Shown in pieces: positions 1,011 to 26,200 of a DNA stretch of 48,420 bases. The notes below the pieces were generated by a model. The model did not search any database. It was given only the letters and a program-made list of their open reading frames with translations, and was not told the origin of the DNA. Source of the stretch: an uncultured Anaeroplasmataceae bacterium (GTDB lineage: Bacteria; Bacillota_I; Bacilli_A; Acholeplasmatales; Anaeroplasmataceae); NCBI GenBank assembly GCA_949840955.1, contig CATKXV010000012.1:1-48420 (forward strand), read 5' to 3'. The translations under genes and the position numbers were made by a program. Numbering within the stretch: position 1 is the stretch's first letter; the number at the start of each line of letters is the position of its first letter.

Positions 1011-1052
1011 ATGTATAAGTTTTGTATAAGTTTTGTTAAATTTTTGTTATAA
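1011..1052. promoter_or_regulatory. Four 11-nt phased repeats, likely response-regulator binding array
   Basis: On the plus strand the core TTGTATAAG or TTGTTAAA recurs with its G at 1013, 1024, 1035 and 1046, exactly 11 bases apart. A further GTTAAA has its G at 991, also in phase (22 bases). On the minus strand this reads TTATACA/TTAACA with 4-5 base gaps, the form of binding sites used by OmpR/PhoB-family regulators such as Bacillus PhoP. The same array lies upstream of the response regulator gene (6304-6332). Confidence 0.65.
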
Positions 1053-1078
1053 AAAAGGCTTAGCATAAGCCAAGCCTT
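1049..1078 (-). terminator. Rho-independent terminator after the 1077-1850 gene
   Basis: On the minus strand AAGGCTT pairs with AAGCCTT, extended by an inner GC pair, followed by TTTTTT. The upstream arm overlaps the stop codon. It partly overlaps the phased repeats of the next operon. Confidence 0.7.
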
Positions 1079-1850
1079 AATTCATAATCTTTAGTAAGCC
1101 CTCTGTTTTAATCATAAATCTATAAGTATCCTCAATGAGCATATCTAAAATCCATTCTTCTATGTCTTCATTGTAAAGATGCTCAACAACCTTTAACTCC
1201 TTAGATAATATATATGTATCACGACCAGCAAATATATAAAATTGCTCTTTGTAATATTTGACTTTTTGAGCAGCACGAATATGAACACCTAACTCATTAA
1301 AAGTATAATACTTTTTTTCTATAAAATCAAATAGTCCAAAAAAATCGTAACAATATTTTCTAGATATTCTTTGCAATGGACCAATTTTATATGCTGTTTT
1401 TTCTACTTCATTCAAAGAAAAATCAGATACATTCAAAGTCACTAAAGAAACTTCTTTTGGTTCATCATCAATCTCCTCTTCTATCATAAGCAATTTATCT
1501 TGCTGAATAGAGCAAAGAATAGCTAAAGAAAAACGATTAAAAGCTTTAGATGTTATTTCTTTCGTTTTCAAGTCGATTTTAAATAATGTGAATTGCTTTG
1601 TATCTAAATTCGTATTTGAAGCAAAAATATATAACTTGGTTTCATCGTAAATAAAATTAGAACTGGAAGATTTCATTCCCAACTCAATATTCATATAAAG
1701 CCTAAAATCTTTGATCGAATAAGGATGTTTGATATCAAGAACTTTGTAAAGCTTTTTAATCTCCTTATCAAAAATCATGATTTCCTTTTCGCAAAGCAAA
1801 TAGGTATTACAAGAATCTGTGTATAAACTTGTTCCATTTTTCTTTTTCAT
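1077..1850 (-). CDS. Hypothetical protein, possible beta-propeller-like fold
   Basis: 257 residues from the chosen ATG at 1850, which has AAAGGA 8 bases upstream. An in-frame start at 1919 would add 23 residues but has no ribosome site. There is no signal peptide or membrane helix. The chain is rich in short alternating hydrophobic stretches (for example TKLYIFASN, TFNELGVHI, EQFYIFAGRDTYILSK), which suggests repeated beta strands as in a small propeller. I recognise no family. It lies 96 bases after the fic stop with no clear terminator between, so it may be co-expressed with fic. A Fic target or partner role is speculation. Confidence 0.65.
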   Translation of the reverse strand: MKKKNGTSLYTDSCNTYLLCEKEIMIFDKEIKKLYKVLDIKHPYSIKDFRLYMNIELGMKSSSSNFIYDETKLYIFASNTNLDTKQFTLFKIDLKTKEITSKAFNRFSLAILCSIQQDKLLMIEEEIDDEPKEVSLVTLNVSDFSLNEVEKTAYKIGPLQRISRKYCYDFFGLFDFIEKKYYTFNELGVHIRAAQKVKYYKEQFYIFAGRDTYILSKELKVVEHLYNEDIEEWILDMLIEDTYRFMIKTEGLLKIMN

Positions 1851-1946
1851 TTTTCCCATCCTTTGACTGTAAAATTCATTAAGAAAAAATATTGAGCAAA
1901 ATACTTTTATTCCTTTCATTGCTGTATAAACTTGAGTTTTACTATT

Positions 1947-3185
1947 TTATTTTAATTCATACTGAATCACATCTTCATTCAAAAGAAAGATTTTTTCTCT
2001 TTTCGAATTCGATTTAGATATTAATATATTTAATTTCAAAAAATGATTTAATATCTTAAGTGCTCCTTGCTTGGTAATATGTAAATTACAAAATTCTATG
2101 AATCCTTTATAATTAAACCAACCTTTTTTCTTATTTACTATTATTTTTTTTAAGTAATGTGCTTCAGTACCAGTAATGGACTCTCCAAGCAATGCCAAAT
2201 CTTCTTTAATTGCTGTAACATTCTTATAGACCAAATAATACCGGTTAGCAAGTTGACATAGATATATAAAGAAATATGTTAAATCATTATGAGAATTCCT
2301 TGTATTGTCTATTGCTCTATAATAATTATTTTTATCATCATTTATTGCCTCACTAATATAGGTTGGTAATATTTCAGCTTTTTCCATCAGTAAACTAATC
2401 CATAATGAAACCATTCTAGCAGTTCTACCATTAAAATCCATATATGGATGAATATATAAAATATAATAATGAGCAATAAATGGCAATAGCATAGATAAAT
2501 GCATCTTGTTGCCATTTAAATTATCATTTATAAAATCAAATAATGAGTTCATACACTCATCTATTTCATCAACTTTGCAACCATCATGGCCTCCTACTTC
2601 AACCATTTCCTCTCTATAATATCCTTTTAATTCATCTTCTTTTTTTAAAGAGTTCTGACTTAACAGATGATATAGCTTCAATAAATTTTCCTTGCTAAAA
2701 TTTGGTTTTGAGGAAATAAACTTATACCCTTGAATCATGTTAAAAATAATTTGCTCATTTGTATCATTTGCTTTTTGAGATTCCATTATTTCTAATATCT
2801 TTTTTCTAGTTGTATGAACACCTTCTATTTTCAAACTCCCATCTAATTCAGAAGCAATTCTAGATAAAATCATTTCACCATAATTTTCGGTTACTATTGT
2901 GCTATTTTTATTTTCAATATCATTTAAAAAGAAATAATTATAATCAGCTATGGAATTCAGCAATTCAGAAGCATCATAATAAAATATTTTCTTAGAGTTA
3001 AAAGATTTTAGAGGTAATTCATGCTTAAATTTAGATAAATAGTCTTCTTTAAAGGTTAAATATTCATTCAATTCCGAATTGGAAAGCAAAAAGCCATATT
3101 TTTTATTCATTCTTATGTCTTCGCTCGTATAATAATGCTTTTCTCTTAGTGCAGAAATAAGAATATTTTCATATTTTGAATTCAT
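1947..3185 (-). CDS. Fic-family protein, class II self-inhibited, with C-terminal winged helix
   Basis: 412 residues. Fic enzymes move AMP or another nucleotide part onto protein hydroxyls. The core motif is present as H246-PYMDFNGR-TAR, with the usual small residue before NGR replaced by Phe251 (HxFxDxNGRxxR form). The inhibitory motif S/TxxxE(G/N) is at S117-LKIEG before the core, which makes this class II: Glu121 would block ATP until released. The last 70 or so residues (from TEAHYLKKIIV) look like a winged helix, so the protein may bind DNA. I chose the ATG at 3185 because the next in-frame ATG upstream (3209) overlaps the -10 of a consensus promoter and cannot be in the message. Confidence 0.88.
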   Translation of the reverse strand: MNSKYENILISALREKHYYTSEDIRMNKKYGFLLSNSELNEYLTFKEDYLSKFKHELPLKSFNSKKIFYYDASELLNSIADYNYFFLNDIENKNSTIVTENYGEMILSRIASELDGSLKIEGVHTTRKKILEIMESQKANDTNEQIIFNMIQGYKFISSKPNFSKENLLKLYHLLSQNSLKKEDELKGYYREEMVEVGGHDGCKVDEIDECMNSLFDFINDNLNGNKMHLSMLLPFIAHYYILYIHPYMDFNGRTARMVSLWISLLMEKAEILPTYISEAINDDKNNYYRAIDNTRNSHNDLTYFFIYLCQLANRYYLVYKNVTAIKEDLALLGESITGTEAHYLKKIIVNKKKGWFNYKGFIEFCNLHITKQGALKILNHFLKLNILISKSNSKREKIFLLNEDVIQYELK

Positions 3186-3207
3186 ACTATCAGTCTTCCT
3201 TTTTTTC

Positions 3208-3236
3208 ATTATAAACCTCATCGTAAACTTTGTCAA
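3208..3236 (-). promoter_or_regulatory. Consensus sigma-A promoter of fic
   Basis: TTGACA at 3231-3236 and TATAAT at 3208-3213 with a 17-base spacer, a perfect match to the vegetative consensus. Transcription would start near 3201, leaving a leader of about 16 bases that holds AAAGGA before the ATG at 3185. Such a strong promoter suggests that repression is the control step. Confidence 0.85.
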
Positions 3237-3263
3237 GAAAGTATTGTAAACTTAATCGTAAAC
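3208..3263. repeat. Two copies of a 21-nt repeat pair over and upstream of the fic promoter
   Basis: On the minus strand GTTTACGAT occurs at the start of each copy and GTTTA(C/T)AAT 12 bases later. The copies span 3243-3263 and 3208-3228, start 35 bases apart and differ at only 3 of 21 positions. The downstream copy covers the spacer and the -10; the upstream copy lies just beyond the -35. This is the pattern of an operator with two sites, most simply bound by the winged helix of Fic itself. Confidence 0.65.
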
Positions 3264-3290
3264 CAGTTATACTTTGTGGATTTCCAAATA

Positions 3291-3319
3291 ATAAAAAAGC
3301 CCAATTCCAAGAACTGAGC
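3291..3319 (-). terminator. Rho-independent terminator of the alarmone synthetase gene
   Basis: On the minus strand GCTCAGTTC pairs with GAATTGGGC (with G-U pairs) around TTG, followed by TTTTTT. It separates this operon from fic. Confidence 0.7.
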
Positions 3320-3322
3320 AAT

Positions 3323-4075
3323 TTATCCGATAGGCATATCCAATTTTTTAAATTTATCCAGTAAAATATCTTCCTCTGTAGGCTCCTTTGCCGCTTGATC
3401 TATTTTTATGCGAAGCTTCAGCATTTTTTCATCCGTTGCTGAGATTACATCCGCACATTCCTTTAATTCATTACAAATGGAAGCTTGGTTTTCTATTTCT
3501 TTTTTATATTTGAGTTGATGCTCCAGGCTTGCCCAAAAATCCATTGCTATGGTACGAATTTGCACCTCTACTTTCACATTTTTCTTATGCTCTGCAAAAA
3601 ATACAGGTACCTCAACAATTAAATGTAGGCTTCTATATCCATTGGGTTTCGGATTTTTTATATAATCCTTTCTTTTTATCAAGGTGATATCATCCTGTTG
3701 AATCAACGCATCGGCAATCTTATATATATCATCAATATACGAGCATACAACTCGTATTCCTGCAACATCATGGATATTTTCTATGACACTTTCTAGGGTA
3801 ATATCATAATTATGACGAGTTAATTTATCAAGAATACTTTCTAGGCTTTTTAATCGAGTATGAATTGAATTGATTGGATTTCTTTTATATAACAAATTAA
3901 AATCTGTATCTAAGATTTCAAATTTTGTTCTTATCTCCTTTAAAGCACATATATACATCATCTGTAATTCCTTAAATTGTACCATAGACCACATAATCTT
4001 TTTTGTTTTATTAATGATATGACTCGGTTCCTTTATACCAACCCACATTTTTTGGATATCCTCATCCTCTACCAT
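3323..4075 (-). CDS. Small alarmone synthetase (RelQ/YjbM-type GTP pyrophosphokinase)
   Basis: 250 residues. It makes (p)ppGpp-type alarmones from GTP/GDP and ATP in the cytoplasm. The RelA/SpoT synthetase domain covers most of the chain: DVAGIRVVCSYIDDIYKIAD, then KRKDYIKNPKPNGYRSLHLI, then VEVQIRTIAMDFWASLEHQLKYK, all hallmark blocks. There is no HD hydrolase domain and no TGS or ACT domain, so it is a single-function synthetase. I chose the ATG at 4075 because AAGGAG lies 10 bases upstream; the GTG at 4084 would sit on the ribosome site. It follows the small membrane protein gene by 60 bases with no clear terminator, so it may share the two-component operon transcript. Confidence 0.9.
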   Translation of the reverse strand: MVEDEDIQKMWVGIKEPSHIINKTKKIMWSMVQFKELQMMYICALKEIRTKFEILDTDFNLLYKRNPINSIHTRLKSLESILDKLTRHNYDITLESVIENIHDVAGIRVVCSYIDDIYKIADALIQQDDITLIKRKDYIKNPKPNGYRSLHLIVEVPVFFAEHKKNVKVEVQIRTIAMDFWASLEHQLKYKKEIENQASICNELKECADVISATDEKMLKLRIKIDQAAKEPTEEDILLDKFKKLDMPIG

Positions 4076-4135
4076 TAGTATCACACTCCTTTATATTCTA
4101 TTCTACCATAAGAAGGTTAAAAATAATAACCTAAA

Positions 4136-4525
4136 TCAATTCTCATTTAATAATTCGTTAGAAAGGGTTAGTATTTCATCCTTATATTTCTTTTTTTGGA
4201 GCTCTAATACCTTATTAAATAAAGGATAGGCAAAAGCCATTGGAAGGAGTCCAACTCCAGCAACAATGCTTCCCCAGATAAATAATTCCCAAACCAAGGC
4301 CATAGACATACCTAGACCAAAGATTAGAATCCCTATAACCCCTATCGTTATTCCAATTATTTTAGCTCTGTTTCTTACCTTGGCATCTAGCTGTCGAAGT
4401 CTTTCTAGCTTCTGGGTATTATCATTAGAGGATAAATATCTTCTTCGGATATCTTCTACTTCCTTTCGTTCCTTTTCTGTAGGTGCAGAATACGTATAAT
4501 TGAATTTATTATCTTGCTGATTCAT
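4136..4525 (-). CDS. Small two-helix membrane protein, third gene of the two-component operon
   Basis: 129 residues. A charged N-terminus (to about residue 52) contains LRQLDAKVRNRAK; two hydrophobic helices follow (about 53-75 and 80-104), then KDEILTLSNELLNEN. It is a paralogue of the 118-residue product at 590-946. The ATG comes one base after the histidine kinase stop, so translation is coupled. A small membrane protein made with a kinase often acts as a sensor accessory or feedback modulator; that is inference. Its twin is controlled by a promoter with the same phased repeats. Confidence 0.82.
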   Translation of the reverse strand: MNQQDNKFNYTYSAPTEKERKEVEDIRRRYLSSNDNTQKLERLRQLDAKVRNRAKIIGITIGVIGILIFGLGMSMALVWELFIWGSIVAGVGLLPMAFAYPLFNKVLELQKKKYKDEILTLSNELLNEN

Positions 4526-4526
4526 T

Positions 4527-5579
4527 TTAGTTTCCTCCTTGCTCCAAATCTAAACATACCGTAAAGGTTGTCCCTATTCCCACTTGACTTTCTACTGTAA
4601 TTTTTCCACCCATAACATCAATCACTTTTTTTACTAAGGCAAGTCCAAGGCCATTTCCTTCTTGGGTATGAGAGGTATCCCCTTGATAAAATTTTTCAAA
4701 AATATGCTCTCCAATTTCATTAGAAATACCACATCCATGATCCTCTATTTGAACAATTGCCTTATTCAGCTTCCTTTTTAATGAAACACGAATGAGCCCA
4801 TTGGTATTAGAAAACTTAATAGCATTAGATAAAAGATTATTCCATACAATTTCTAAATACATTGGACAGGTTACCATCTCAATTTCTTCTAAATCACATT
4901 CTAATGTGATACTTTTATTCTCCATAAATTCCTCAAAGGAAAGAATGCTTTCTGTAAGCATTTCATCAAGCCGGATTTTTTCATATTCTAAGGAAAGCTC
5001 TTGATTTTCTAATTTATTGAGCTTTAATATATTGGTAATCAGCTCGGTCAATCTTTTAGAGGTTTGAACCAATGTTTGAGTATAATTCCTTTTTGTATTT
5101 TCATCTAACGTGGGATTTTGTAAGGAAATCGCATAATTTTGAATAATAGAAAGTGGTGTTTTTAGCTCATGAGAAACATTGGAGATAAAGTCCTGATGCA
5201 ACACCTCTGTTTTAGAAAGCTCACTTGTCATTTTATTTAAATTTTCTTTTATAAAATCAAACTCATTGTACTTTTTATAGCTATGGTTTACCTTTAATCT
5301 TATTGAAAAATCGCCAGATGAAATTTTATCCGTAGCCTGTAATATATCCTTAACCGGTCGGTCAACAGTTATTTTTCTTCTAAAATAATCAATTAATGTT
5401 GCCAACAAGGTTAAAAAACCAATAGCAACTAGCATAACTAAGACAAGGATAAAGGGATTTTTTGTTTTTTGAATTACAGCATTATAAATCCCTATACCAA
5501 AGCCAACACTCACTGAAATTGTTAAAAAGAACAATCCTGCACCTAAAAGAGTTGAAAGTATTTTTCTTTCCTTTCTCAT
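4527..5579 (-). CDS. Membrane sensor histidine kinase
   Basis: 350 residues. Two membrane helices (about 10-32 and 42-64) are joined by only about ten residues, so there is almost no outside sensor domain: an intramembrane-sensing layout. A HAMP-like region follows (about 65-120), then HisKA with phospho-acceptor His137 in SNVSHELKTPLS, and the ATPase domain with N box NNLLSNAIKFS, G1 DHGCGI and G2 GNGLGLALVKK. The start overlaps the response regulator stop by 4 bases (ATGA). Kinases of this build often sense envelope or antimicrobial-peptide stress; the signal here is unknown. Confidence 0.92.
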   Translation of the reverse strand: MRKERKILSTLLGAGLFFLTISVSVGFGIGIYNAVIQKTKNPFILVLVMLVAIGFLTLLATLIDYFRRKITVDRPVKDILQATDKISSGDFSIRLKVNHSYKKYNEFDFIKENLNKMTSELSKTEVLHQDFISNVSHELKTPLSIIQNYAISLQNPTLDENTKRNYTQTLVQTSKRLTELITNILKLNKLENQELSLEYEKIRLDEMLTESILSFEEFMENKSITLECDLEEIEMVTCPMYLEIVWNNLLSNAIKFSNTNGLIRVSLKRKLNKAIVQIEDHGCGISNEIGEHIFEKFYQGDTSHTQEGNGLGLALVKKVIDVMGGKITVESQVGIGTTFTVCLDLEQGGN

Positions 5580-6247
5580 TTTAAAATCGCCTTATATCCA
5601 AGACCATGCACCGTAACAATTTCAAAGCCAGTGCATTCCTTTGTTTTTTCTCTAAGCTTAGCCATATAGACATCCACTGTTCTAGATGTAGCAGAGGAAT
5701 CATAGTCCCAAAATTCTACCATAAGCTGTGCTCTAGTAAAGGTTCTTTTAGGAAAGGATAATAGTTTAAAAAGCAAGTCAAATTCTTTTACTGTAAGAGG
5801 GATCTCCTCTTGATTCATATACGCTGTATGCTCCTCCTGATTCATTCTTAAATTTCCTGCCACCAATTCCTTACATCGTGCAATATTAGCTCTTCTCAGC
5901 AGGGCTTCAATTCGTAGAATCAATAGATCCATATCAAATGGCTTAACCACATAATCATCTATCCCTAATTTATATCCTACCTGCTTTGAGGGCTTATCAT
6001 CTAGTGCTGTCATAAATAAAATAGGAATTTTATCATCCATTTGTCGAATACTTCGGGTCAGCTCAAAGCCATCCATTTGAGGCATCATAATATCGGTTAA
6101 TATTAAATCTATATCCTTATTTTCAAATACCCTTAAGGCCTCTTTTCCATTAAAGCAAGGCTCCACTGCATATCCTTTTTCTATAAGACAGGAATAAACT
6201 AAACTATTTAAGGCTTTATCATCCTCTACTAATAAAATCTGAACCAT
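5576..6247 (-). CDS. OmpR/PhoB-family response regulator
   Basis: 223 residues from the ATG at 6247, which has AAAGGAG upstream; an in-frame start at 6301 lies upstream of the -10 and is rejected. The receiver domain carries the acidic pair ED at 8-9, phospho-acceptor Asp52 in LILTDIMMPQMDG and the conserved Lys in VVKPFD. The C-terminal winged helix ends with TVDVYMAKLREK and IVTVHGLGYKAI, typical of the OmpR family. It is first in the operon with its kinase and a small membrane protein. The promoter carries phased repeats that this class of regulator binds, so positive autoregulation is likely. Confidence 0.94.
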   Translation of the reverse strand: MVQILLVEDDKALNSLVYSCLIEKGYAVEPCFNGKEALRVFENKDIDLILTDIMMPQMDGFELTRSIRQMDDKIPILFMTALDDKPSKQVGYKLGIDDYVVKPFDMDLLILRIEALLRRANIARCKELVAGNLRMNQEEHTAYMNQEEIPLTVKEFDLLFKLLSFPKRTFTRAQLMVEFWDYDSSATSRTVDVYMAKLREKTKECTGFEIVTVHGLGYKAILK

Positions 6248-6277: not shown

Positions 6278-6283
6278 ATTATA
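6278..6283 (-). promoter_or_regulatory. Promoter -10 of the two-component operon
   Basis: TATAAT on the minus strand, 30 bases before the ATG. The position for a -35 (6301-6306) reads ACAAAA, far from consensus, and abuts the phased repeats, as at activator-dependent promoters. Confidence 0.6.
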
Positions 6284-6303
6284 GCATGGTCTTATTAGCA
6301 TTT

Positions 6304-6332
6304 TGTATAAAAAATGTTAAAATTTTGTTAAA
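6304..6332. promoter_or_regulatory. Three 11-nt phased repeats before the response regulator gene
   Basis: On the plus strand TGTATAA, TGTTAAA and TGTTAAA have their G at 6305, 6316 and 6327, exactly 11 bases apart. On the minus strand this reads TTTAACA-N4-TTTAACA-N4-TTATACA. The nearest repeat lies 22 bases from the -10; in the 333-946 promoter it lies 33 bases away, a difference of exactly one period. Confidence 0.65.
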
Positions 6333-6395: not shown

Positions 6396-7493
6396 CTAAT
6401 CTATTTTTAATTCTGTTTCTTTATCAAATAAATGACTGTGCTCTATATCAAAAGTAACATTGACCTTTGATTTTTCTTCAACAACAATTCTAGAGTTGAG
6501 AATACTTATCATAGGGGTTTCCTCTAAATTAAAGTACATATTGGCTTCATGTCCAAGCATTTCGCAAAGATCAACCTCAACCTCAACACTATTTTCCTTA
6601 GGCTTCCCTTGTTCTAGAACTACATCCTCAGGACGAATTCCTAAAATAACTTCCTTCCCATGTAAGCCTTGCTCCTGAATAAGGGCTTGCTGCTTTTTAG
6701 ATAGTACAAAGGTATATTGTCCTCCTTGAGTTACAAATAAACCCTCTTCATTGATTTTACCATTTAGGAAATTCATAGAAGGTGTTCCTATAAAGCTTCC
6801 TACAAACACATTTGCAGGAGAATTATAAATTTCCTTTGGAGTACCAATTTGCTGAATTTTACCATCCTTCATTACTACAATTTTAGATGCCATAGTCATA
6901 GCCTCTATTTGATCATGGGTTACATACAATGAAGTAGCTCCTATATTTTTATGAATTCTAGCAATTTCTGTACGCATTTGTACTCTTAATTTCGCATCCA
7001 AATTGGAAAGTGGCTCATCAAATAAGAATACCTTAGCATCCCTTACAATGGCTCTACCTAAGGCAACTCTTTGTCTTTGACCACCAGATAAGGCCTTTGG
7101 CTTACGATCCAAATACTGACTTAATCCCAAAGTCTCTGCAACCTCTTCTATTCTTCTTTTGATTTCATCCTTTGGTATTTTTCTTAATTTTAAACCGAAG
7201 GCCATATTATCAAAAACAGTCATATGAGGATATAAAGCATAGGATTGGAAAACCATCGCAATACTTCTGTTCTTAGAAGGAACATCATTCACACGCTCTC
7301 CATCAATTAATAAATCTCCACTAGAGATTTCTTCTAAGCCGGCAACCATTCTTAGGGTTGTAGATTTCCCACAGCCAGATGGACCAACTAGAACAATAAA
7401 ATCCTTATCCTCAATTTCTAAATTAAAATCAAATACTGCTTGTACTCCGTTTGGATAAATTTTGTTGATATTTTTTAAACTAACATTTGCCAT
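6396..7493 (-). CDS. msmK: Sugar ABC transporter ATPase (MsmK/UgpC/MalK type)
   Basis: 365 residues. It powers CUT1-type sugar importers from the cytoplasmic face. Walker A is GPSGCGKST (about 38-46), the Q loop lies in MVFQSYALYPHMTV, the signature is LSGGQRQRVALGRAIVR, Walker B is VFLFDEPLSNLDAKLR and the switch His is in YVTHDQ. A C-terminal regulatory (TOBE/MOP) domain follows from about residue 240. The start overlaps the ROK gene stop by 14 bases. The two permeases and the lipoprotein in the neighbouring operon have no ATPase of their own, so this is their likely partner. MsmK-type ATPases can serve several importers. Confidence 0.93.
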   Translation of the reverse strand: MANVSLKNINKIYPNGVQAVFDFNLEIEDKDFIVLVGPSGCGKSTTLRMVAGLEEISSGDLLIDGERVNDVPSKNRSIAMVFQSYALYPHMTVFDNMAFGLKLRKIPKDEIKRRIEEVAETLGLSQYLDRKPKALSGGQRQRVALGRAIVRDAKVFLFDEPLSNLDAKLRVQMRTEIARIHKNIGATSLYVTHDQIEAMTMASKIVVMKDGKIQQIGTPKEIYNSPANVFVGSFIGTPSMNFLNGKINEEGLFVTQGGQYTFVLSKKQQALIQEQGLHGKEVILGIRPEDVVLEQGKPKENSVEVEVDLCEMLGHEANMYFNLEETPMISILNSRIVVEEKSKVNVTFDIEHSHLFDKETELKID

Positions 7494-12061: not shown

Positions 12062-14932
12062 CTACGATTTCTTCTTTTTTATGACAAGAATTACTAAAAT
12101 ACAAATTCCTATAATTCCTATTCCTAAAGATACGGCTATGCTTATGATAGGAAGTACATGATTTTGAGCTGGTACTTCTACTGGTGTTACCCTTTCCCAT
12201 TTGGCATAAAGCGTAATATCCTTTGTTACAGCTTCTTCAAAGCTCCATTTTTCCTGATACTTCTCATCCTTATACCAGCCTTCAAAGGTATACCCCTCCT
12301 GTGTTGGATCTATTGGCTGAACAGCCTTAGCTCCCTCTTGAATTTCCTGAGATGCGATTGGACTTCCACCCTTGGTTTGAAACTCAACTATATAAAGAGC
12401 TGGCTTGGGAGCCTCTTGCTTAATCCATTTGGGGTACAATGTTGTATTTTTCGTAATGACATCCTCATCAAAATTCCAACGAGTTTGGCATTCCTTTTCC
12501 TTATACCAGCCTTCAAAGATGAAGCCTGCCTGCGTTGGATTTTCAGGCTGAACAACCTTTTCGTTATATCCAATAGGAACTGGATCTATATCGACATAGG
12601 CAAAATATACCTTATAGATTTTCTTTACCCATTTTGCGTAAAGAATGATATCCATTTCTACCCTTGCCCCAGGAACAGCCTTGGTTGTATAGGCTTCATC
12701 GATATACCAGCCTTCAAACGTATAGCCAGCCTCCTCTAGCTGAGGTAATAAAATAGGAAGCTTTTCATAGGTTTCCTCTTGTGGTGGAGTTATTCCATGT
12801 CCACATGCGTTAAAGGTGATTTTATATGGATTTGATATCCATTTTGGATATAGAGTGATGGTTTCATATACAACATCTACAGTAAAATTCCAAGGGATTT
12901 TACATTCTTTATCCTTATACCAGCCTTCAAACGTATACCCTTCACGGATAGGTTCATTTGGCTTGGAAAGCTTTTCATTATAATACACTTGAACAGGTTC
13001 TATATCTGAGGCATCAAAGGAAACAGTATAGGACACTCTTGTCCATTTTGCATAAAGAACGATATCCTTATATAAAGCTTGATTGGCTACTGCTTTTTCT
13101 GTCAAAGCCTCATCCATATACCAGCCTTCAAACGTATAGCCTTCCTCTGCAAGGATGGGTAGCTCCTTAGGAATATAGATCAAATCCTTTAGACTATCTG
13201 GTTTTTTTCCATGTCCTTTATGATCAAAGGTAAGGGTATAGGAATCTTTTATTTCAATGGTATCTATCGTATATAAATGAGATGGAACGGTCTTAATGGT
13301 GTCCTCTACTAAAATTGAATTGGTACTAGCTTTAGATAAAAAGATTTGATATTCTCCATGAGGTAAAGCCTCTTCTTGATATAAGACGCCATTCACATAG
13401 ATTTTTTCTGCAAAGGATTTAATTTTACCCTGTTCTATTGTATACGGTATTTCCTTTATAGAAGCAAGCTTCTCTACAAGAATATCCTTATAGCCTACCG
13501 TTCGATTCGAAGTGTACTGACTTCCATTATTCCAATCCTGCTTAGTATCTAGAAAAGTGGATTTTCCAGAAAATCTTCTTATCGTAATTCTAGATGGCTC
13601 TCCTAAAATATTTTTGTTATCCTCTATATAAATATTGGTTGGCGTATGATACGCAATATCTCCATTATCGATTCGAATTTGCTCATTGGCAAGCCCATCT
13701 GAATAATACAGATTGGAGGTGATGGATATAGAATCAACCTCTGCTGTTGAAACATAGTTTAAAAATAAAATAGAATAATCTACCGTCAAATATTTATTAA
13801 GCATTTGATTGTTTCCATAGGGAATTTGAACAAGCTCCTTAGAAAAATCCTTATTGATGAATATGTTTTCTGAAATTTCTACATTTTTAAGCTTTGGTCC
13901 AGTCGCATCATTTTGTACATACAGTAGAATCAGAGTATCCTCTAATACATTTTTATGAATCAAAAGATCTTCCCCATTACGGCATTTAATTCCACCATCT
14001 TGGTTTTTGTTCATTCCTTTGAAATAATTGCCAACAATATCTAGCCCCTGAAATGCTTTAGCATATATGAAATGATCTCGATTATATCCCTTTGTGGATT
14101 GAGATCCATCCTCATATTGAGCCTCTGTGATATGGGTATTAAAGCTCATATAATTTCCAATAATTTTCGCATTCACATCTGAATTTAAAATGTTAATGCC
14201 TGTCATGAAATAGCCCTGATCCGTTGCTTCATCAATTAAATTTGTAGAAAGAATTGTAGACTTTAAAGCCTTTGTTTTTTCAGAAACAATACTAGATTCT
14301 ACATCCTCTAATCTTCCAAAATAATTATCCTGAATCACTACGTTTTCTGAATAATATGTGGCAATTCCTCGTCCAAGGCTCTGGGCATCTCTAAGAAACA
14401 TATTGGATTCAACCGTCATAGAGCCTCGATTGTTATGGATGTAATATCCTGTCGCAGGACCACCATTTTTACCATTTGAATCTGGCTTACAGCCCATAGA
14501 TACATCCACATCAGATGCATGGATAAAGCCATTATAGCGTATTTCCCAGCCAGAAGAGCCCTGCTTACACCAAATGGACATATTATCGAATATGATATGC
14601 TCAATTTTGATGCTATTCACAGAGACTTTGCTGGTAATATACCTTTGCTTGGTAACGGCTTGAAATACAGTTCCCTCTTCTCCAAGAATATCTACACCAT
14701 GGATTAAATACAAATCGGCATCAAACCTATAAATTCCTTTTGGAAAAAATGCATTCTTTTTTTGATTTTTACAGGTGGTTAAAAAGCTTTGAACAGAGGC
14801 TGTAACATCACTAGCCTCCACATCAACCTGATATTCTGAGGCATTGAGATAGCTCTCACTAGAATCGGCATAAATAGAGATAGAAAACAAACAAAGCACC
14901 ATAAGACCTAAAATAATGAAATACTTTCTCAT
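12062..14932 (-). CDS. Secreted right-handed beta-helix protein, possible polysaccharide lyase, with five InlB repeats and a membrane anchor
   Basis: 956 residues. A signal peptide (about 1-22) is followed by a pectate-lyase-like beta-helix (about 35-480) with recurring strands such as VVIQDNYFGRLED, AKIIGNYMSFN, LDIVGNYFKGM and VEISENIFINKD. Five InlB B (Listeria-Bacteroides) repeats with the core GYTFEGWY follow (about 565-915), then a membrane helix (about 925-950) and KKKKS. Beta-helix enzymes include PL6 chondroitinase B; DGGIKCRNGEDLL may be the active face, but I cannot assign a family with certainty. It overlaps the PL8 stop by 4 bases and is the last gene of the operon. It has no LPxTG motif. 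Confidence 0.85.
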   Translation of the reverse strand: MRKYFIILGLMVLCLFSISIYADSSESYLNASEYQVDVEASDVTASVQSFLTTCKNQKKNAFFPKGIYRFDADLYLIHGVDILGEEGTVFQAVTKQRYITSKVSVNSIKIEHIIFDNMSIWCKQGSSGWEIRYNGFIHASDVDVSMGCKPDSNGKNGGPATGYYIHNNRGSMTVESNMFLRDAQSLGRGIATYYSENVVIQDNYFGRLEDVESSIVSEKTKALKSTILSTNLIDEATDQGYFMTGINILNSDVNAKIIGNYMSFNTHITEAQYEDGSQSTKGYNRDHFIYAKAFQGLDIVGNYFKGMNKNQDGGIKCRNGEDLLIHKNVLEDTLILLYVQNDATGPKLKNVEISENIFINKDFSKELVQIPYGNNQMLNKYLTVDYSILFLNYVSTAEVDSISITSNLYYSDGLANEQIRIDNGDIAYHTPTNIYIEDNKNILGEPSRITIRRFSGKSTFLDTKQDWNNGSQYTSNRTVGYKDILVEKLASIKEIPYTIEQGKIKSFAEKIYVNGVLYQEEALPHGEYQIFLSKASTNSILVEDTIKTVPSHLYTIDTIEIKDSYTLTFDHKGHGKKPDSLKDLIYIPKELPILAEEGYTFEGWYMDEALTEKAVANQALYKDIVLYAKWTRVSYTVSFDASDIEPVQVYYNEKLSKPNEPIREGYTFEGWYKDKECKIPWNFTVDVVYETITLYPKWISNPYKITFNACGHGITPPQEETYEKLPILLPQLEEAGYTFEGWYIDEAYTTKAVPGARVEMDIILYAKWVKKIYKVYFAYVDIDPVPIGYNEKVVQPENPTQAGFIFEGWYKEKECQTRWNFDEDVITKNTTLYPKWIKQEAPKPALYIVEFQTKGGSPIASQEIQEGAKAVQPIDPTQEGYTFEGWYKDEKYQEKWSFEEAVTKDITLYAKWERVTPVEVPAQNHVLPIISIAVSLGIGIIGICILVILVIKKKKS
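12190..13240 (-). repeat. Five tandem InlB B-repeat units in the beta-helix protein
   Basis: Each unit of about 65-75 codons carries (E/A)G(Y/F)xFEGWY and closes with LY(A/P)KW. Units alternate between two types: one beginning TFxxxGHG with YxDE after the Trp, and one with YNEK and a WNF tail. This suggests the ancestral unit was a duplicated pair. At DNA level the phrase coding YTFEG recurs about every 200 bases. Confidence 0.9.
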
Positions 14933-16995
14933 AGCCTTCTCCTCACTGTCATTTTTTGTTCTAAGCGATCCTTTACCTCTACCTGAATTTCTTCATAGCC
15001 TAGAATATGGATTCCTATTTTCTGATTTGGATTTGAGGCAAAATAAAGCTCTATTTGATCCTGATTTCTTACAAGGATATAGCTACCACGTCCCGTAATT
15101 CTTATGTCATTGAAGGCAACTGGAGCATCGGTAAAGCAATTGATAAGAACCATATTCAAATACTCTACAATATGAGCAGTATCTACAATATGAAGCTTAT
15201 ATTCATCAACAACCGCCATTTTCCTTGGATAAAGCTGATAAGCATATTCCTTAGGATTCTTATAATACACTCTTGTTTGTCTAAAATGAATCGGAACATC
15301 TGCTTCATTGTCATTCAAATCGTGATAGGATCTTGTCTCTAAAACCTGTTCTATTTGAGGCTTGTCTTTGAAGATGAGCTTAGCCTCCTTGGTTTCTATC
15401 GTTTTTTTGTTGATGCTGTAGGTGTCCTCAAAGACATATAGAGTCGATATATACTCCTCCTTAGACTGGATATGTGTTCCAACAGCCACTAAGGAATTCT
15501 TTAAAACAAATTTGGAAAAGTAGCCCTCTACTTCATTTTTTTGATGAAAGCAGGTATTTAGTACATCCTTATAGGATACCCCTGCTGTAATATCATTTTC
15601 CATAATTTGATTGGGCTCCTCTAACTGAAGAATATTGGTAGAGCCCATTCGGTACAATGGATTCTGCTTGAGCACCTCATTCTTTTCTGGTGCTCGATTA
15701 TAGTAAACATCATAGACGAAATTTCCTTGATAGCTTCCTAATATATTTTCATTGTTTATACTTTCATAATTTGAAATATAGGAAGAGCAGGCTGATATTG
15801 CAATTAAATACTCCTGATTCCTTTTTATATACCGATTCATTGAATTAAAGGCTTTGGCTTGAGGTTCATAATGGAATATTTCTTCTTCATTATAGATTTT
15901 ATCTAATAAGCCTGGTCTATAATATAATTTAGAAAGCCTATGCAAAGAATCCATAATGCGCTTATAGCTATAATTCCCATCCGCCCGTCGACTGCTTGCT
16001 CGGCCTCGTACACAATCTAATGCACGCTCGTGATATAAAAATGGTAAATAGGATTGCTCAATTCGTTCATATAAAACATCCATAGACTGTCTAATATCTA
16101 TATTCAGCATATGAAATATTTCTATAATTTTCGTTATAGAAAACAACAAAACCTCACCATAGGATGCATTATAAGGAACCGTTGTATGATATAGGAAGCT
16201 TCCATCTAGATAAAAGCCATTTCCGCTTTCTGTAAGCTTTAGGATTTGTGGAAGAAGGCTAGCTAATCTCTGAATTTCCTTTTCATCCTGTAAGAGTATA
16301 CTTCTTAGCAAACAGATATATATGGTATCAGATAAATTGGCATAATCGGTTTGAATTCGATGAATATCGGGATAGTTTCTTCTATAATACTCATATTCTG
16401 CCTGAGGAATATAGAAATTTTCAATAGCCATCATTCGACATATTTCTTCCTTATCCATTATATCATAAAGCAAGAATATCATTTCATTAAGGCACCTTGG
16501 AATTCCTATTTCATAAATCCACCAGTTTCCTATATAATTCTTCGTACCCGAATATTCCTTGGATATAAATTCCCTTACTTCCTTTACAATCCAATTTTTT
16601 AAAGAAGCATCCTGCTCGATTACCGCTTTTTTACTAAGAGCCAGCAATCGCTTCAATATGGTATAAAGCCTTTCTGTATTTTCCTTAGGAAGAGCTTCAT
16701 ATAGCGATTCCTTAGAAATTTCTTCTGTAAATGAATCCAATAAGGAATGACTATAGCTATGTATAATCTCCTCATAAAATTTATTTTGTGGTTGAAAAGA
16801 GAAGGTGCATGCTTCATTATCCTCAACAATACAGGTTTGGAATTTTCCCAAATATACTGCATAGGAGCCTTGGTTGGATATTAGGATCTTCTGATCCACT
16901 CCATCTAGTCGAATATTGAGGGTTTGTACCTCTACATCCTTTAGTACCTCTATGAATAAATTGTATTCCTCCTGCTTTGAATTGTTAAACTCCAC
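14929..16995 (-). CDS. PL8-family polysaccharide lyase (hyaluronate/chondroitin lyase-like), no signal peptide
   Basis: 688 residues. PL8 enzymes cut hyaluronan, chondroitin or xanthan by beta-elimination, leaving an unsaturated uronic acid. Visible are GNWWIYEIGIPRCLN (about 156-170), Asn220 in YANLSD, His270 in DGSFLYHTT, Tyr279 in YNASYG and CVRGRASSRR (328-337). The Asn-His-Tyr spacing (50 and 9) matches the pneumococcal hyaluronate lyase catalytic set N349/H399/Y408. The beta domains follow. The GTG start follows AGGGGGTGA; the N-terminus (MEFNNSKQEEYN) shows no signal peptide, so the enzyme should act in the cytoplasm on imported oligosaccharides. The family is usually secreted. Confidence 0.9.
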   Translation of the reverse strand: MEFNNSKQEEYNLFIEVLKDVEVQTLNIRLDGVDQKILISNQGSYAVYLGKFQTCIVEDNEACTFSFQPQNKFYEEIIHSYSHSLLDSFTEEISKESLYEALPKENTERLYTILKRLLALSKKAVIEQDASLKNWIVKEVREFISKEYSGTKNYIGNWWIYEIGIPRCLNEMIFLLYDIMDKEEICRMMAIENFYIPQAEYEYYRRNYPDIHRIQTDYANLSDTIYICLLRSILLQDEKEIQRLASLLPQILKLTESGNGFYLDGSFLYHTTVPYNASYGEVLLFSITKIIEIFHMLNIDIRQSMDVLYERIEQSYLPFLYHERALDCVRGRASSRRADGNYSYKRIMDSLHRLSKLYYRPGLLDKIYNEEEIFHYEPQAKAFNSMNRYIKRNQEYLIAISACSSYISNYESINNENILGSYQGNFVYDVYYNRAPEKNEVLKQNPLYRMGSTNILQLEEPNQIMENDITAGVSYKDVLNTCFHQKNEVEGYFSKFVLKNSLVAVGTHIQSKEEYISTLYVFEDTYSINKKTIETKEAKLIFKDKPQIEQVLETRSYHDLNDNEADVPIHFRQTRVYYKNPKEYAYQLYPRKMAVVDEYKLHIVDTAHIVEYLNMVLINCFTDAPVAFNDIRITGRGSYILVRNQDQIELYFASNPNQKIGIHILGYEEIQVEVKDRLEQKMTVRRRL

Positions 16996-17025
16996 ATCTT
17001 CACCCCCTCTTCCTTGATTTTTGAA

Positions 17026-18585
17026 TTATTTTACGTATTTTTGAATGGTTGATGTAATGGTATCTGTACCTGCCTTCTGCATTGCTGATACATAAGCATC
17101 CCAGGTTTGATCATTGATTTGCTGAGTTCCCTTTAACCATTTATTGATTTGCTCTAAATAAACATTATTTACACCACTTCTTGAGGTATTTACCTTTTGA
17201 TAATCCTCATTTGTTAATTTAATGTTTGGATAAATCAGCTTATTATAGTTCACATTTAAATAAGGTGTACCATCTGCATTTTTGCTATCCTGATATAAGG
17301 ACATCGCTGTCTTAGCTTCCTCAGAAAGCCATGCTTCCTCATAGGTAAAGGTCTGACAGCCTGGGCTTTGTAGCTGAGCACCTATATTATAAAGGTTCGT
17401 TAATGCTGTATTTCTATCATTTATAATTTTATCTGTAAAGGTATAGGTTGAGCCATTCTTTGTGAAGTGAACATTCTCTATACCAAAATTCAAGGTGTCA
17501 TGCCCCTCATCTGTAAACCAATAGTCAATCCAACGCATCAGCTTAATTTGATCCTCTTCACTTGTAGAGGAATTAATTGCAGTTACTGTACCAATTTGCT
17601 TACGAATGGTTGGCTCATGCTTTGTTCCATCACTTCTCGTTGGAGGAGCAATGCAAACCACCTCAAAGCCTTCTACTAAATTCGCTTTATATACATCATC
17701 ATTAAAGGAATAGGTTGTACCTAACCAGTCATGGGTCGCACCACCACTATTTTGAGCAAATAGGGTAACACGCTTATCCTCTGTGGATTTATTAAGGATA
17801 TCTGGTTCAATTAGACCCTCCTTATACCACTGGGCAATATTTTCCATAGCCTTTCTAAATTCTGGCTGAATTGCACCATATTTAACAGTTGTACCATCCA
17901 AATAATATTCTGCCGTAGCTCCCCATAAAGAAGCTAACTCAGAAATTGCAAAATCAGAATCTCTATCAAAATATGGATAGATATTATCTGCTGTAGTTAA
18001 TAAATTTTTATTATTTTTAAACGCACGTAATAAATCATGGAATTGCTCAACCGTTAAATCATTCAATTTAGATTTATCAATCCCCTTAGGTAATTTTTTA
18101 TTCGTATCTAAGGTGTTAATCCAATCCTGTCTTACAAAGAATGCCTTTGCTGTTTGACCATCTGTATAAAATGGAATTCCATAAATTTTTCCATCAGAGG
18201 CAGTAGCCCAAGCCTTCTTTTCTGGATTTTCATCAAAGAATTTCTTTAAATTTGGAGCATGCTCATCAATCAAAGGAGCTAAATCTAAAAAGATACCATC
18301 CTTTAATGCAGTTGCCTCAATTGTATCCTGGTCATTGACAACAAGATTGGCATCCTTTCCTCTTAAATTATAGATACTATCATAGTTTGTATCATATTTT
18401 TGTAAAACACCCTCTAAAGATATACCGGCATATTCATTTGCCTTTTTATAAACATCCATATCAGAATTATAAATATGACCATCCTGATATAAGAAAATGG
18501 ATAATTCACTTGTTCCCCCACCACAGGATGCAAGTGTTACTAAGCTAGTCGCTAATAGTGCTGTCGCTAGAATCTTTTTCTTCAT
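17026..18585 (-). CDS. Lipoprotein sugar-binding component of an Lpl-type ABC importer
   Basis: 519 residues. A lipoprotein signal ends in the lipobox LASC with Cys21, so the mature protein is lipid-anchored outside the membrane. The size and motifs (YGIPFYTDGQTAKAFFVRQDWIN, GAIQPEFRKAMENIAQWYKEGLI, GWIDYW-like IKLMRWIDYWFTDEGHDTLNFG) fit the large LplA group of family 1 binding proteins, which take up oligosaccharides from uronic-acid polymers. AAGGAGG precedes the ATG. The gene overlaps the 3' end of the giant lyase gene by 41 bases and is separated from its permeases by two large surface genes, an unusual order. Confidence 0.93.
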   Translation of the reverse strand: MKKKILATALLATSLVTLASCGGGTSELSIFLYQDGHIYNSDMDVYKKANEYAGISLEGVLQKYDTNYDSIYNLRGKDANLVVNDQDTIEATALKDGIFLDLAPLIDEHAPNLKKFFDENPEKKAWATASDGKIYGIPFYTDGQTAKAFFVRQDWINTLDTNKKLPKGIDKSKLNDLTVEQFHDLLRAFKNNKNLLTTADNIYPYFDRDSDFAISELASLWGATAEYYLDGTTVKYGAIQPEFRKAMENIAQWYKEGLIEPDILNKSTEDKRVTLFAQNSGGATHDWLGTTYSFNDDVYKANLVEGFEVVCIAPPTRSDGTKHEPTIRKQIGTVTAINSSTSEEDQIKLMRWIDYWFTDEGHDTLNFGIENVHFTKNGSTYTFTDKIINDRNTALTNLYNIGAQLQSPGCQTFTYEEAWLSEEAKTAMSLYQDSKNADGTPYLNVNYNKLIYPNIKLTNEDYQKVNTSRSGVNNVYLEQINKWLKGTQQINDQTWDAYVSAMQKAGTDTITSTIQKYVK

Positions 18586-21500
18586 CTTTTTTTCCTCCTT
18601 TTTTTACGATAATTAAAATAACACCAACAAGGACAACTACCCCTAGTACACCACCTACACATCCTAAAACGATAGGAAGTACAGAGGATCCACCTTGATT
18701 GGATAACGGCTTATAATTGTTGTGATAGAATTCAACCTTAGATACTGAAATTTTATCATCATTGTTATTTCCGTTGAATACAATCTTCACGTATTTTGCA
18801 TCTACAAATCCTAAGGTATATACCTCATCTCCCATTTGATTTGTACTGCTACCAGAGAAATAACAGCATTCCCATGTCGTTCCATCCTGGCTTGTATAAA
18901 TATCAAAATAATATTTATTTAATAAACCACCAGAGAAACGAATTAATACATTTGTAAAGGTTGTTACATCCTCAAATTCAAAAATTACAGTCTCTTTTTC
19001 TGTAGAACTGAAAATAGAATTTCTATCTCCATCAAGAAGCTTTTCCACTCCTGCTGAGCCTGTTACCTTAACTACAGGAATTGATGTATACTCCTCAAAG
19101 CCCTCAATAATCGTATCTACAATAAACTTATACTGATAGATACGTTTTTCATTGGTTGCTAAATCCTCTACAATAACCTTGGTTATTTGATTAAATAGCT
19201 TGGATTTTTCAACGGTTACCTTATATTTGGATTCATCATAGGTAACCTTTAAATTTGGAACCTCCTTCACATTTTTATCTAGAGGTATCACATAATCATA
19301 GGTATATGGATTGAAAATATATCTGAATTTATCTCCAAGCTCAGCTTCAATCTCAATATGCTCAACAGCAATATCTGCCTTTGGAGTTAAATTATCTAAA
19401 TTCCAATTTAAAACAGAAACAAATTCATTTTTATAAGAGCTGAAATCCTCTATTTCCTCCATAGTTGGAACAAATACTACACTTAGAACACCAGAGGTAA
19501 TTCCCTCAAGCTTAATCACAAGCTTATTTACACCACGATTATCTAAATTACAGAATTCACCAATGGTTCCTGGAAGAGCTGTTGCTGGCATTACACTAAA
19601 TTCACCTTGCTCGCTTGTAATATAAGCATATAGGCTCTTACCATTCATAACCAGTCTTGCAAGCTTGTCATGAATAATTTCAATTCTTGCCTCTGTATGA
19701 GCACTCCAGTAAACAATGGATTCATCTCTTAATTCAAATTCATCCTGAATTAAAACAGCACTTCTGTTATTAAACAGCTTTAATCCACGATAAGCAGATA
19801 AAACATCTGCCTTATATACGTTTGTTAAGTCAACAACAGAATAGCCACCTGAGCTATTAGAATCAAAGGAAATAATTGGAGCATTTTCATATGGACTTTG
19901 CTGAAGAACTGGATTCTTTTCAGGATTAAATACGAGCGTATTTTGTCCTTGAGCATTTTTCTTATAATAGGTCCATCTTTGATAATCATAATCCCAGAAG
20001 CCGTTTGGAACAACTACATTATATTCCTCATTACAATAATTTCCGATGAAGCGCTCTCCTAAAGCATAAATTTCAAAGGTACCACTATCTAGATTTCTAT
20101 GGGCATTATCATAGGCTAATCCATCTACTCCCTTTAAGCCTGTAAATAAGGCCATTTCATCTCCAAAGGATGAACGGAAGGTTGCAAGCTCATGCTCCTC
20201 TAATAGGAAATCCAATTCCTCCATAGAATGCAAATTCATCTTATCAAACAATCCTGGCTGATACCATAATAAATTCATGATATTATATTGCTCATTATCA
20301 TCCGCAAGCTTACTTAGAATGGCAGCATTGATATTATCCTCATCAATTCTTGTATACCATAATAAGGCTGGCTGATTATTGGAATATTCACTTTCCGCAT
20401 AAAAGAAAGCATTATAATTTGGACTAGATGTAAATAATGGATAATTAATATAATTCTGGATCCCCTCTACATCCCATAATCCAAAGGAGTTGATATTTCC
20501 ATCGGTTTCTCCATAAATATTACGAAGTGTTGCTAACAAATAAACCATATTTCTATGAGCATAGATAGAATAGGAAGGACCCTCTGGCCAACCTCCAGAT
20601 GGAGAGTAATGTACTAACGCAATCTGTAATAAACGGAAAGCCTCTGTAATCACATTGGCAGCCATTTCTTGTACATTTACCGTAAAGGATTCTCCTCTTA
20701 CTGTTACATCAATTGGACCACCATCATAGCTTAAAACAGAGAATGCTGCGATAGCTAAATCTCCACAAATCAATAAGCTATGGTTATTTCCATGTAATAA
20801 AACATTCACATTGGTTAGATTTTCAAAGTAATAGAAGCCTTCCTCATACAGTGCCTTAACAATCATCTTCTGCTTATCTGCATCTAATGTGTCCTTAATA
20901 TAATTATAAGAGAAAGCTACACTATAGGTTACCATGGCAGCGTCTAGGAAGCCATTGCTGTCCTCACCCCAGGATAATCTTCTTGTACCATCACCACTAA
21001 ATTCTTCATCCTTAACAATCCACCACATTTGCTCCCAGCAGCGATCTGCATATTCCTTTTTCCCTGTTACCTGATATAATATTGCAAATTGCTCCATTGC
21101 ACTTCTAGCATTGGCTGGAACAGCTGTAGGCTCCTTACGAGATAATTGAGCCTCATAATATTCTACCCAGCGTGTGATGTATTCCTCTTTAGTTAAATAG
21201 CCTTGACGAACTTCATCTAACCATTCATTGTTTGTTAAAACATAAACACCATCTAATTTACCCTCAGATTTCAAACGATCAAAACGATAGTCCTCTACTC
21301 CAGGTAATACATAGACCGTAATATGAGCCTCTGTAACCTCTTCTCCATTATGGATAACGATATCAAAATGATCATATCCTGTAAATCCTTCCTTTGGTGT
21401 ATAGTTATATAATACACCATGAATGATTTTTCCAGTTGTGTTATAATACCGATCCTGAATTTCAGATACAATTCCTTGATTTAGAATTTCAACACTACCC

Positions 21501-23200: not shown

Positions 23201-23206
23201 ATAATT

Positions 23207-26200
23207 TTACTCCTTATCCTTTGGTTCCTTTTTCTTGAATACAAAGAAATATACCAATACACCTGCAACAGCAAGTACAACAACTACTACAATTGGTACA
23301 ACGATTGCTACAACATTTACACTAGAATCCTTAGGTGTATCAGGCGTTGGATTTGGAGTTGGAGTTGGATCATCTTCTCCTGGGGTTTCAGTAGGCACCT
23401 TTGTCCACTTTGCATATAAGGTTACATCAGAAGTTAATTCAGCACCTGCAGTAGCCTTTGTAGTACACTCAGCATCTACATACCAACCATCAAAGGTATA
23501 TCCTTCTGCTGTTACTGTAGGTAAAGTTTGAGGTAAAGCTGTTACATTTTCAGCCTTAGCTGGAGCTGTACCATGTCCATTTACATTGTAAGTTACTGTA
23601 AATGTAGTTGGTGCTTCAGCAGTCCATTTTGCATAAAGTGTTACGTTGGCTTCGATTGCTGCATTAGCTTCAGCTGCTTGTGTGCAATCCTCATCTAAGA
23701 ACCAGCCACCAAATATCCAGCCTTCTGCTGTTAAAGAGGTCAATTCAGCAGGTAATTGAGTAACATTTTCAACTTTTTCAGGAGCAGTTCCGTGTCCCTT
23801 CACATCAAATGTAACTGTATATCCCTTTACTACAACTGTAACAGTTTTTGTTAAGGATGGATTATCACTTACAAGAATTGTAATGGTTGTAGATCCTATA
23901 GCCATTGGAACGATTTGAAGCTTTCCACCTGTAATATCTACAGCACAAATAGTATCATCTGCAACCTCAGCAGATAAGATAGATGTAGCATCAGCAGGAG
24001 TAACGGTTATATTCAATTCCTTGAATACATCTCCTAAGCTTAATTCAACAGACGCATCTACTGTTACTTCTGTTGCTGGCTTATTTACTACAAAGGAAAC
24101 TGTCTTCTTTACATCACCATTGGTTATTGTAATTGTTACATTTCCAGATTTATCAAGGAAGGTTACTAATCCAGTAGCATCTACTGTAGCAATGGTTTCA
24201 TCACTTGAAGCATAGGTTGCATTTACAACACCAGCAGAAGGAACAGGTACAGCATTGATTTGATATGTAGATCCAACTTTTTGAGTAATGGCATTATCTG
24301 TAACAATAATTTTATTGCTTGAATCTGTAATTTCCCAGCCTGTAGTCTTTACATCATCTAATTCAACTAAATTCAAATGGGTAATATAAGCATCTACACC
24401 TGTTTGTGTATCCCATGTACCTAATTCAATCTTCAAACCAATATAATCACGATCTAAGGCATTTGGATCAAAATTAATTGGACCAGTTTCAACATATACC
24501 CAACCATTTTTCGTTTCACCGATTTCATTTTTCTTGATTACATAATAAGGAGCACTCATTGGAGAATATTCGTAATTTCCTTTACCAGCATCAAAATAAT
24601 TATATAGCTTGAAATCAATTCTTCCCGTAGGGCTAGCAGCAGTTATATCCATCTTAACCCATCCAGTCAGCTTATAATCCTTATTTGCTGTTAAATTAGC
24701 TAATGGAAGGTGTAAATCCAAATGAGATCCTCCTTGATTTGCACCACCAGTTCCTGCGATTTTAATAGCTAAGCCAAATAAATCATCTGCCACTACATTG
24801 GTATGAGAATATTGCTTATTCTTATGAGTTTTACTAGTATATCCATGTAAGGTCTTATTTGGTTCATCCCAAACATCCTCTAAAGTATATCCATTCAATG
24901 CATCATAAACACCCTTTGTAACAACGACTGTAATCTCCTTTGTTACATTTTCTCCACCTAGAGCTGTAACAGTTACCTTAGCAGTTCCTGTTGCAACACC
25001 TGTTAAAATATAATTATCTAAACCAACAACTGTATCATCAGAATTTGTATACTCTAATGTAATATCATCTGCTGTAGTTGGATAAGCTTTGAAAATCTTG
25101 GATAAGTCAAAGGATTCACCAACACCTAATGTAATTGTATCGTTGATAACAACCTTATCTGTAGTAATATCCGTTACAGGAATTGGATCACGATTTTCAG
25201 CTACATCAAAGGTAACATCTACAGGATTGATAAAGTCAGCATCAAAAGTAAAGGTTGCCTTTAAATTTTCTACCGTTTTTAAACCAACATATTTTCCATT
25301 TTCACATTGAATAATAGCCTCTTCTCCAGATTTATAAACGGTAACTCCATTCTCTGTTGATGAAGTAAGCTTTGTATCATTTAAACTAAAATCAATGGTA
25401 TATCCTGGAACTACAGAAGGTAAATAATTTGAATCAGATCCTGTAATTGTAGGCTCTAAATCAAATGGAATACTTACCTTAACATCTTCTACTGTTGGAG
25501 CAGTAGCTACAGGGGCATTATAATCCCCTATTCTTATATAATCAATATAAGCATTTATATCCGCAGAGGTATTACTTGTTGGTAGGTTATAGAAAAATTC
25601 TGTTAGCTTTCCTTGGAAATTATCACCATCTCCAAAATTGGTTTCATAAATAAATTGTCCATCTAAAAATCCAATAATTTTATCTTGAGATTTTCCATCT
25701 GGCAACAAATCACCTTTATCCTGTAAGATAAATGTGGCCTCATGCCATGCATTTTTAGTTACTCTATCTTTCAGTGTGGTGATTTGTATCCATGCACTAT
25801 TATCTCCTGCTTTTACACGATAAAAGGTTCCATTATCTCGCATTCTTAATAATTCATATGATTTAGCAGCTCCTAAACCATCATTTGCATGAAAATATAG
25901 ACCAAATTGTTGTTCTCTACCATGATCAATATTAAACTTAAACTTTAATACCATGGCACCACCCTCTTTATTATATAAATTAGGTGCTGCTGCATTATCA
26001 CGGAAGCTTATCTTACCACTTTGACTTCCGTCTTTTAACGTGTTTATTGTCAAAACTTCTAAATCATCTTTTTTCTCTAGTTTGGTTGAAATTAATGCTT
26101 GCTTATTATTTGCATAAATATTATGATTGTTTGCTCCACCATAAGCATCAATTGTTCCATCACCATAGTCAAACTCTTCAGCAAAACTGAAATTTTCAGT

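Follow-up and report, generated by a model that had tools for sequence, protein, structure and literature searches.

Response regulators of the OmpR family bind tandem 7-bp direct repeats separated by 4-bp spacers (PMC4832192, PMC4415409). In the streptococcal CiaRH system, the CiaR operator is TTTAAG-N5-TTTAAG with the -10 ten bases further (PMC3091779), which puts the -10 at 27 nt (6+5+6+10) from the first repeat. The operator of WalR/VicR is TGTWAH-N5-TGTWAH (PMC4168254), while phosphorylated SaeR has the perfect site GTTAAN6GTTAA, and the SaeRS system combines an intramembrane kinase and an autoinduced operon with accessory proteins that feed back via phosphatase activation (PMC5083920). 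Here, we describe phased arrays of the half-site TTWWACA-N4 in a stretch of 48,420 nt from an uncultured Anaeroplasmataceae bacterium (GCA_949840955.1, contig CATKXV010000012.1, positions 1 to 48,420; hereafter the window). The arrays precede two operons on the minus strand, one headed by a response regulator (RR) gene at 5576-6247 and the other, at 333-946, encoding a small membrane protein and a small soluble protein. To judge from the sequences, the arrays are very probably docking sites of this RR, and we hold with considerable confidence that they are operators from which it would activate both operons.

Two phased arrays in the window

The first-pass annotation of the window described four GTATAA/GTTAAA cores upstream of the 333-946 operon. 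Re-reading the sequence, we found the G of each core on the plus strand at 1013, 1024, 1035 and 1046, in 11-nt steps, exactly as claimed. The core sequences agree for the first three (GTATAA, GTATAA, GTTAAA) but not for the fourth, which is GTTATA with one mismatch. All four repeats are present, but the array is longer than was described, as an exact in-phase TTTAACA at 990-996 and a degenerate unit TTTTGTA at 1001-1007 had been overlooked. On the minus strand, following transcription, the units are TATAACA (1045-1051, one mismatch to TTWWACA), TTTAACA (1034-1040), TTATACA (1023-1029), TTATACA (1012-1018), TTTTGTA and TTTAACA, at six grid positions 71, 60, 49, 38, 27 and 16 nt before the start of the -10 hexamer TATAAT (975-980). 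The whole promoter reads TATAACAAAAA TTTAACAAAAC TTATACAAAAC TTATACATTTT TTTTGTAAAGC TTTAACACTTCTTTTT TATAAT, and its first unit adjoins the T-run of a terminator-like hairpin belonging to the upstream gene.

That the same motif and period recur before the RR gene was borne out, with units on the minus strand starting at 6332, 6321 and 6310. These are TTTAACA (6326-6332), TTTAACA (6315-6321) and TTATACA (6304-6310); together with a degenerate in-phase unit GCTAATA (6293-6299) they occupy four grid positions 49, 38, 27 and 16 nt before the TATAAT at 6278-6283 (TTTAACAAAAT TTTAACATTTT TTATACAAAAT GCTAATAAGACCATGC TATAAT). The last strong repeat is 38 nt from the -10 in the 333-946 operon and 27 nt in the RR operon, a difference of 11 nt that agrees with the one-period shift noted earlier. 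The lack of a good -35 in front of TATAAT was likewise found in both promoters, where the best -35 at a spacer of 16-18 matches at 3/6, and none better than 3/6 was seen in the promoters examined.

The arrays are rare. The window has three arrays of three phased units with no more than one mismatch, all in the two promoters, compared with a mean of 0.01 in shuffled sequences (0/100 shuffles reached three such arrays). The random spread of the repeats over AT-rich intergenic DNA that would have spoken against a regulatory role was thus not found. The proposed genome search for period-11 TTWWACA-N4 arrays was run as a pattern search over the 2.1-Mb genome: three exact units are present only at the 333-946 operon promoter and the RR promoter, and three units with at most one mismatch give 3 matches vs 0 for the reversed-pattern control. 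A two-unit match within an open reading frame at C13:44432 was set aside as chance or relic, and so was one at C1:169484, between opposite-strand genes and without an in-phase -10. This orphan intergenic site (G000:C1:169484-169501; L007 ~6485-6502) has 18 bp identical to part of the RR-promoter array.

Conservation and promoter geometry in relatives

Phylogenetic footprinting, through conservation, register and co-occurrence, supports the earlier suggestion that the 333-946 operon is a likely target of the nearby two-component system. Almost all genomes that have a close RR orthologue retain the array, in register with the -10, at the head of the RR operon, of the operon of the 590-946 homologue, or of both. 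Its conserved form, TTTTACAAAAC-TTTAACATTTC, heads the joint operon, or both operons when they are separate. A homologue of gene A (590-946), the membrane-protein gene of the 333-946 operon, is usually kept beside the same operon of RR, histidine kinase (HK) and membrane protein B in the same genus and family. The gene order is A-X-RR-HK-B, X being an unnamed membrane protein, in G003, G006, G001 and G027, where the array precedes the joint operon. In G012 it is A-C79 then RR-HK, C79 (333-572) being the gene after A. The operons are separate, with arrays at both the A and the RR promoters, in G012, L112, L115 and L116, and in G035, G061 and G072 the array precedes an epimerase gene upstream of RR. 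No array was found upstream of unlinked paralogues of A, either in the relatives or at C1:338 kb of the source genome. When 20 loci were scanned, the listed matches, which are exact pairs or else near-exact ones accompanied by an in-phase -10, numbered 11; all belonged to the loci (L111-L119) with the closest orthologues of the RR, and the reversed motif gave 0.

Some arrays point to further targets. In G003, an extra exact array precedes an operon encoding an ABC transporter twice over (ATPase-permease twice; L213, G003:C1), which is likely a further target and gives a hint at peptide or envelope stress. In both G003 and G007 an extra array precedes a gene for a membrane protein of 209-219 residues. 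These additional targets suggest a role of the system at the envelope. In L118 (~1770-1850), from Paenibacillus phytohabitans, we also observed divergent promoters with period-11 TTTAACA arrays, one directed toward RR-HK genes and the other toward an MFS transporter.

The spacing between array and -10 is constrained. With the first two-unit match taken as anchor, a -10 matching TATAAT at 5/6 or better lies 27, 49 or 71 nt from the first repeat in 22 of the 24 promoters, while at any other register it is found in at most 4 of the 24; shuffles gave a mean of 1.5 and a maximum of 7. Most promoters have the 49-nt distance. The 71-nt distance is that of the separate A promoters of the source genome, L112, L115 and L116, and the 27-nt distance that of G012 and L119; distances of 38 and 60 nt were not seen among the 24. 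Such 22-bp steps would be expected of dimers bound head-to-tail to half-sites of 11 bp. On the evidence of these promoters, the regulator evidently takes the place of a -35, with the distance shifting in dimer-sized steps.

In the mechanism that we infer, phosphorylated RR dimers would bind head-to-tail on the tandem half-sites, each dimer covering 22 bp. The most conserved dimer site is the one furthest upstream, and it could be a high-affinity site that anchors further dimers on weaker ones. Loading would proceed toward the -10 until 16 nt before it, and the dimers near the -10 would recruit RNA polymerase in place of the missing -35. The RR would in this way activate its own operon (RR, intramembrane kinase and B), a positive autoregulation, and co-induce A and the putatively helical, soluble C79 as an envelope effector or feedback module.

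That it is this RR which binds the arrays is suggested by co-occurrence. Among 55 genomes of the family, exact arrays are present in 9 of the 12 with this RR vs 2 of the 43 without it (Fisher p = 1.7e-6, an optimistic value that overstates the association, since related genomes do not provide independent sites). Of the two exceptions, G007 is a fragmented assembly and G070 is 78% complete; in both, the array stands before the same linked genes. The dependence among sites weighs against our reading of the arrays, and so do two other observations. The 71-nt register of the source operon relies on the one-mismatch unit TATAACA (1051), and would become 60 nt with exact units only. Moreover, WalR and Bacillus subtilis PhoP have motifs of the same class, so that the sequence alone does not name the binding protein.

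Repression, other regulators and DNA shape

It is conceivable that the RR binds the arrays but represses, or autorepresses, both promoters. The units extend to 16 nt before the -10, where a bound protein would overlap the polymerase site, and an inverted half-site, TGTAAA, conserved shortly after the -10 in 12 of 30 promoters could serve as a repression site. TGTAAA starts exactly 11 nt after the -10 start, at about the transcription start, in G003, G006, G027, G012, G007, G035, L111, L220, L223, L224, L225 and L245, and is absent from this place in both window promoters; it could be a start-site motif or a second, negative site. Against repression, every promoter lacks a good -35 yet has a good -10 in fixed register, which is how promoters activated by CiaR and PhoB are laid out (PMC3091779; PMC3348028). 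We therefore regard repression as unlikely, and activation by the RR as the better account.

Another regulator of the same class could bind the arrays, whether a protein like WalR or PhoP or one of the genome's two other OmpR-family regulators (at C9 and C2), with the local system being one target among others. Cross-regulation among OmpR-family systems is known in general. However, the source genome encodes no more than three DNA-binding domains of the OmpR family, all of them below the NCBIfam cut-offs of the WalR and PhoB families. The RR itself has the receiver and the winged-helix Trans_reg_C domain of the OmpR/PhoB family (PF00072, E=1.2e-29; PF00486, E=1.1e-18), but scores 159-168 bits against PhoB-family cut-offs of 270-296, and 144 bits against the cut-off of 340 for YycF (WalR). 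No array was found upstream of the C9 regulator or of the adjoining gene X. Moreover, the exact three-unit array, found nowhere else in the genome, co-occurs with this RR across genomes and stays with its operon through rearrangements. Binding by another regulator is in our view quite improbable.

Comparison with the described systems agrees with an OmpR/PhoB-type tandem operator, in that 7-bp direct repeats with a 4-bp spacer occur in multiples of two over the -35 region, with the -10 kept. The likeness to CiaR is close: both are OmpR-family regulators with TTTAA-type half-sites, an 11-bp period and the same 27-nt register. The half-sites here, however, end in ACA rather than in the invariant G of CiaR, most promoters have two or three dimer sites (49 and 71 nt), and the kinase and the targets are different. 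With WalR/VicR, the arrays share the half-site class, on the opposite strand, and the period of 11 bp. TGTWAH-N5-TGTWAH matches the window twice, each time within these arrays, but the RR is not a WalR by NCBIfam and its predicted regulon comprises only a few operons.

The Pho boxes of PhoB and PhoP (E. coli pstS, B. subtilis PhoP) are also head-to-tail repeats of 7+4 bp, with at least one box overlapping the -35. From the first repeat of E. coli pstS (L267) to TATTTT, which we take to be the -10, the distance is 50 nt. In contrast to these regulators, the RR falls below the phosphate-regulator family cut-off, and no phosphate genes were seen among its predicted targets, which are membrane-protein, ABC-transporter and its own genes.

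The SaeR site is the motif described here on the opposite strand, and GTTAAN6GTTAA is present in the RR promoter at 6316. The DNA-binding domain of SaeR is among the closest solved relatives of that of the RR, though not the closest. The saePQRS locus of S. aureus resembles the present one further in its intramembrane-sensing kinase of ~350 residues, its co-encoded accessory membrane proteins and, if the RR activates its own operon, its autoinduced promoter at the operon head. No virulence-type targets were seen here, and the likeness, also of A, X and B to SaeP and SaeQ, is one of layout.

The arrays might instead be phased A/T tracts that bend the DNA, or an UP element, recognized by no specific protein. 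Indeed, A- and T-tracts recur every 11 bp in AT-rich DNA. Across 24 promoters of the 49-nt class, however, both distal units have A, C and A without exception at unit positions 5-7, in part a selection effect because the motif score served to choose the promoters, whereas the runs in the spacers vary between units, AAA in one and TTT in the next. The array is also retained, distinct from its surroundings, in metagenome-assembled genomes of 45-52% GC, and DNA shape is a very improbable explanation of its conservation. Chance similarity can practically be dismissed: the region is AT-rich, and at 3 mismatches arrays are noise (45 vs 43 in the control, with similar real and reversed counts throughout 2-3 mismatches), but the scarcity of near-exact arrays in shuffled and control sequences and their conservation in relatives already refute it.

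Genes of the two operons

The RR start was placed at 6247 because a longer open reading frame from 6301 would include the -10. The RR is followed on the minus strand by the HK (4527-5579), a protein of 350 residues with HisKA and HATPase domains. Its two transmembrane helices, recognized as hydrophobic segments at residues 7-25 and 44-62, leave a very short extracytoplasmic loop, the layout of intramembrane sensing. The last gene of the operon, B (4136-4525), encodes a membrane protein of 129 residues. The 118-residue product of A is predicted to form a helical hairpin with two transmembrane segments. A and B share 39% identity (E=2e-16) and are paralogues, a relationship that links the two operons. 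The fold predicted for A consists of two long helices (predicted local distance difference test score 88) and had no significant match among the solved structures of the Protein Data Bank. C79, which is paired with A in relatives, encodes an Ala/Lys/Glu-rich protein of 79 residues with no predicted transmembrane segment and no Pfam match. Neither A, B nor C79 was given a family name above cut-off in Pfam or NCBIfam.

An operon of a small membrane protein and a soluble helical protein also adjoins the intramembrane-sensing LiaRS system of Bacillus, as LiaIH. A-C79 resembles it by analogy of layout only, as LiaR is not of the OmpR family and C79 has no Pfam match, PspA included. By analogy with these systems, A and B may act as accessory feedback proteins as in SaeRS, or as effectors like LiaI/LiaH.

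While operator arrays of OmpR-family regulators are well known as a mechanism, in a limited literature search neither this system nor its gene pair appeared to have been characterised. An uncharacterised two-component system is thereby given a predicted operator, a promoter geometry and a near-complete predicted regulon from its sequence. This regulon is small and includes a conserved uncharacterised gene pair, so that two unannotated protein families (A/B and C79) become linked to one regulator. The 22-bp quantised spacing over 24 promoters also offers a natural experiment on the number of OmpR-family dimers needed per promoter.

As a tentative extension, to which we give somewhat less than even weight, this could be a previously undescribed envelope-sensing system of gut Bacillota with a dimer number fixed for each promoter, where one, two or three 22-bp sites would correspond to 27, 49 or 71 nt. 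The longest arrays are those before the separate A-C79 operons of the source genome and three relatives. In that case, the threshold of induction or its order might depend on array length, and A and B would be paired partners of the kinase, as effectors or in feedback.

The operons are 5 kb apart, and the region between them (1077-4084) encodes a Fic-domain protein, a RelA/SpoT-type synthetase and an unknown protein of 280 residues. The genes are placed as if an ancestral operon had been split. Gene X, part of the operon in relatives, is found in the source genome at C9, adjoining a second two-component system. Elsewhere in the window, large surface proteins with YTFEGWY-type repeats are encoded at 12062-26326 near genes for ABC sugar transport and polysaccharide-lyase-like proteins, a region that resembles a gut glycan-use locus.
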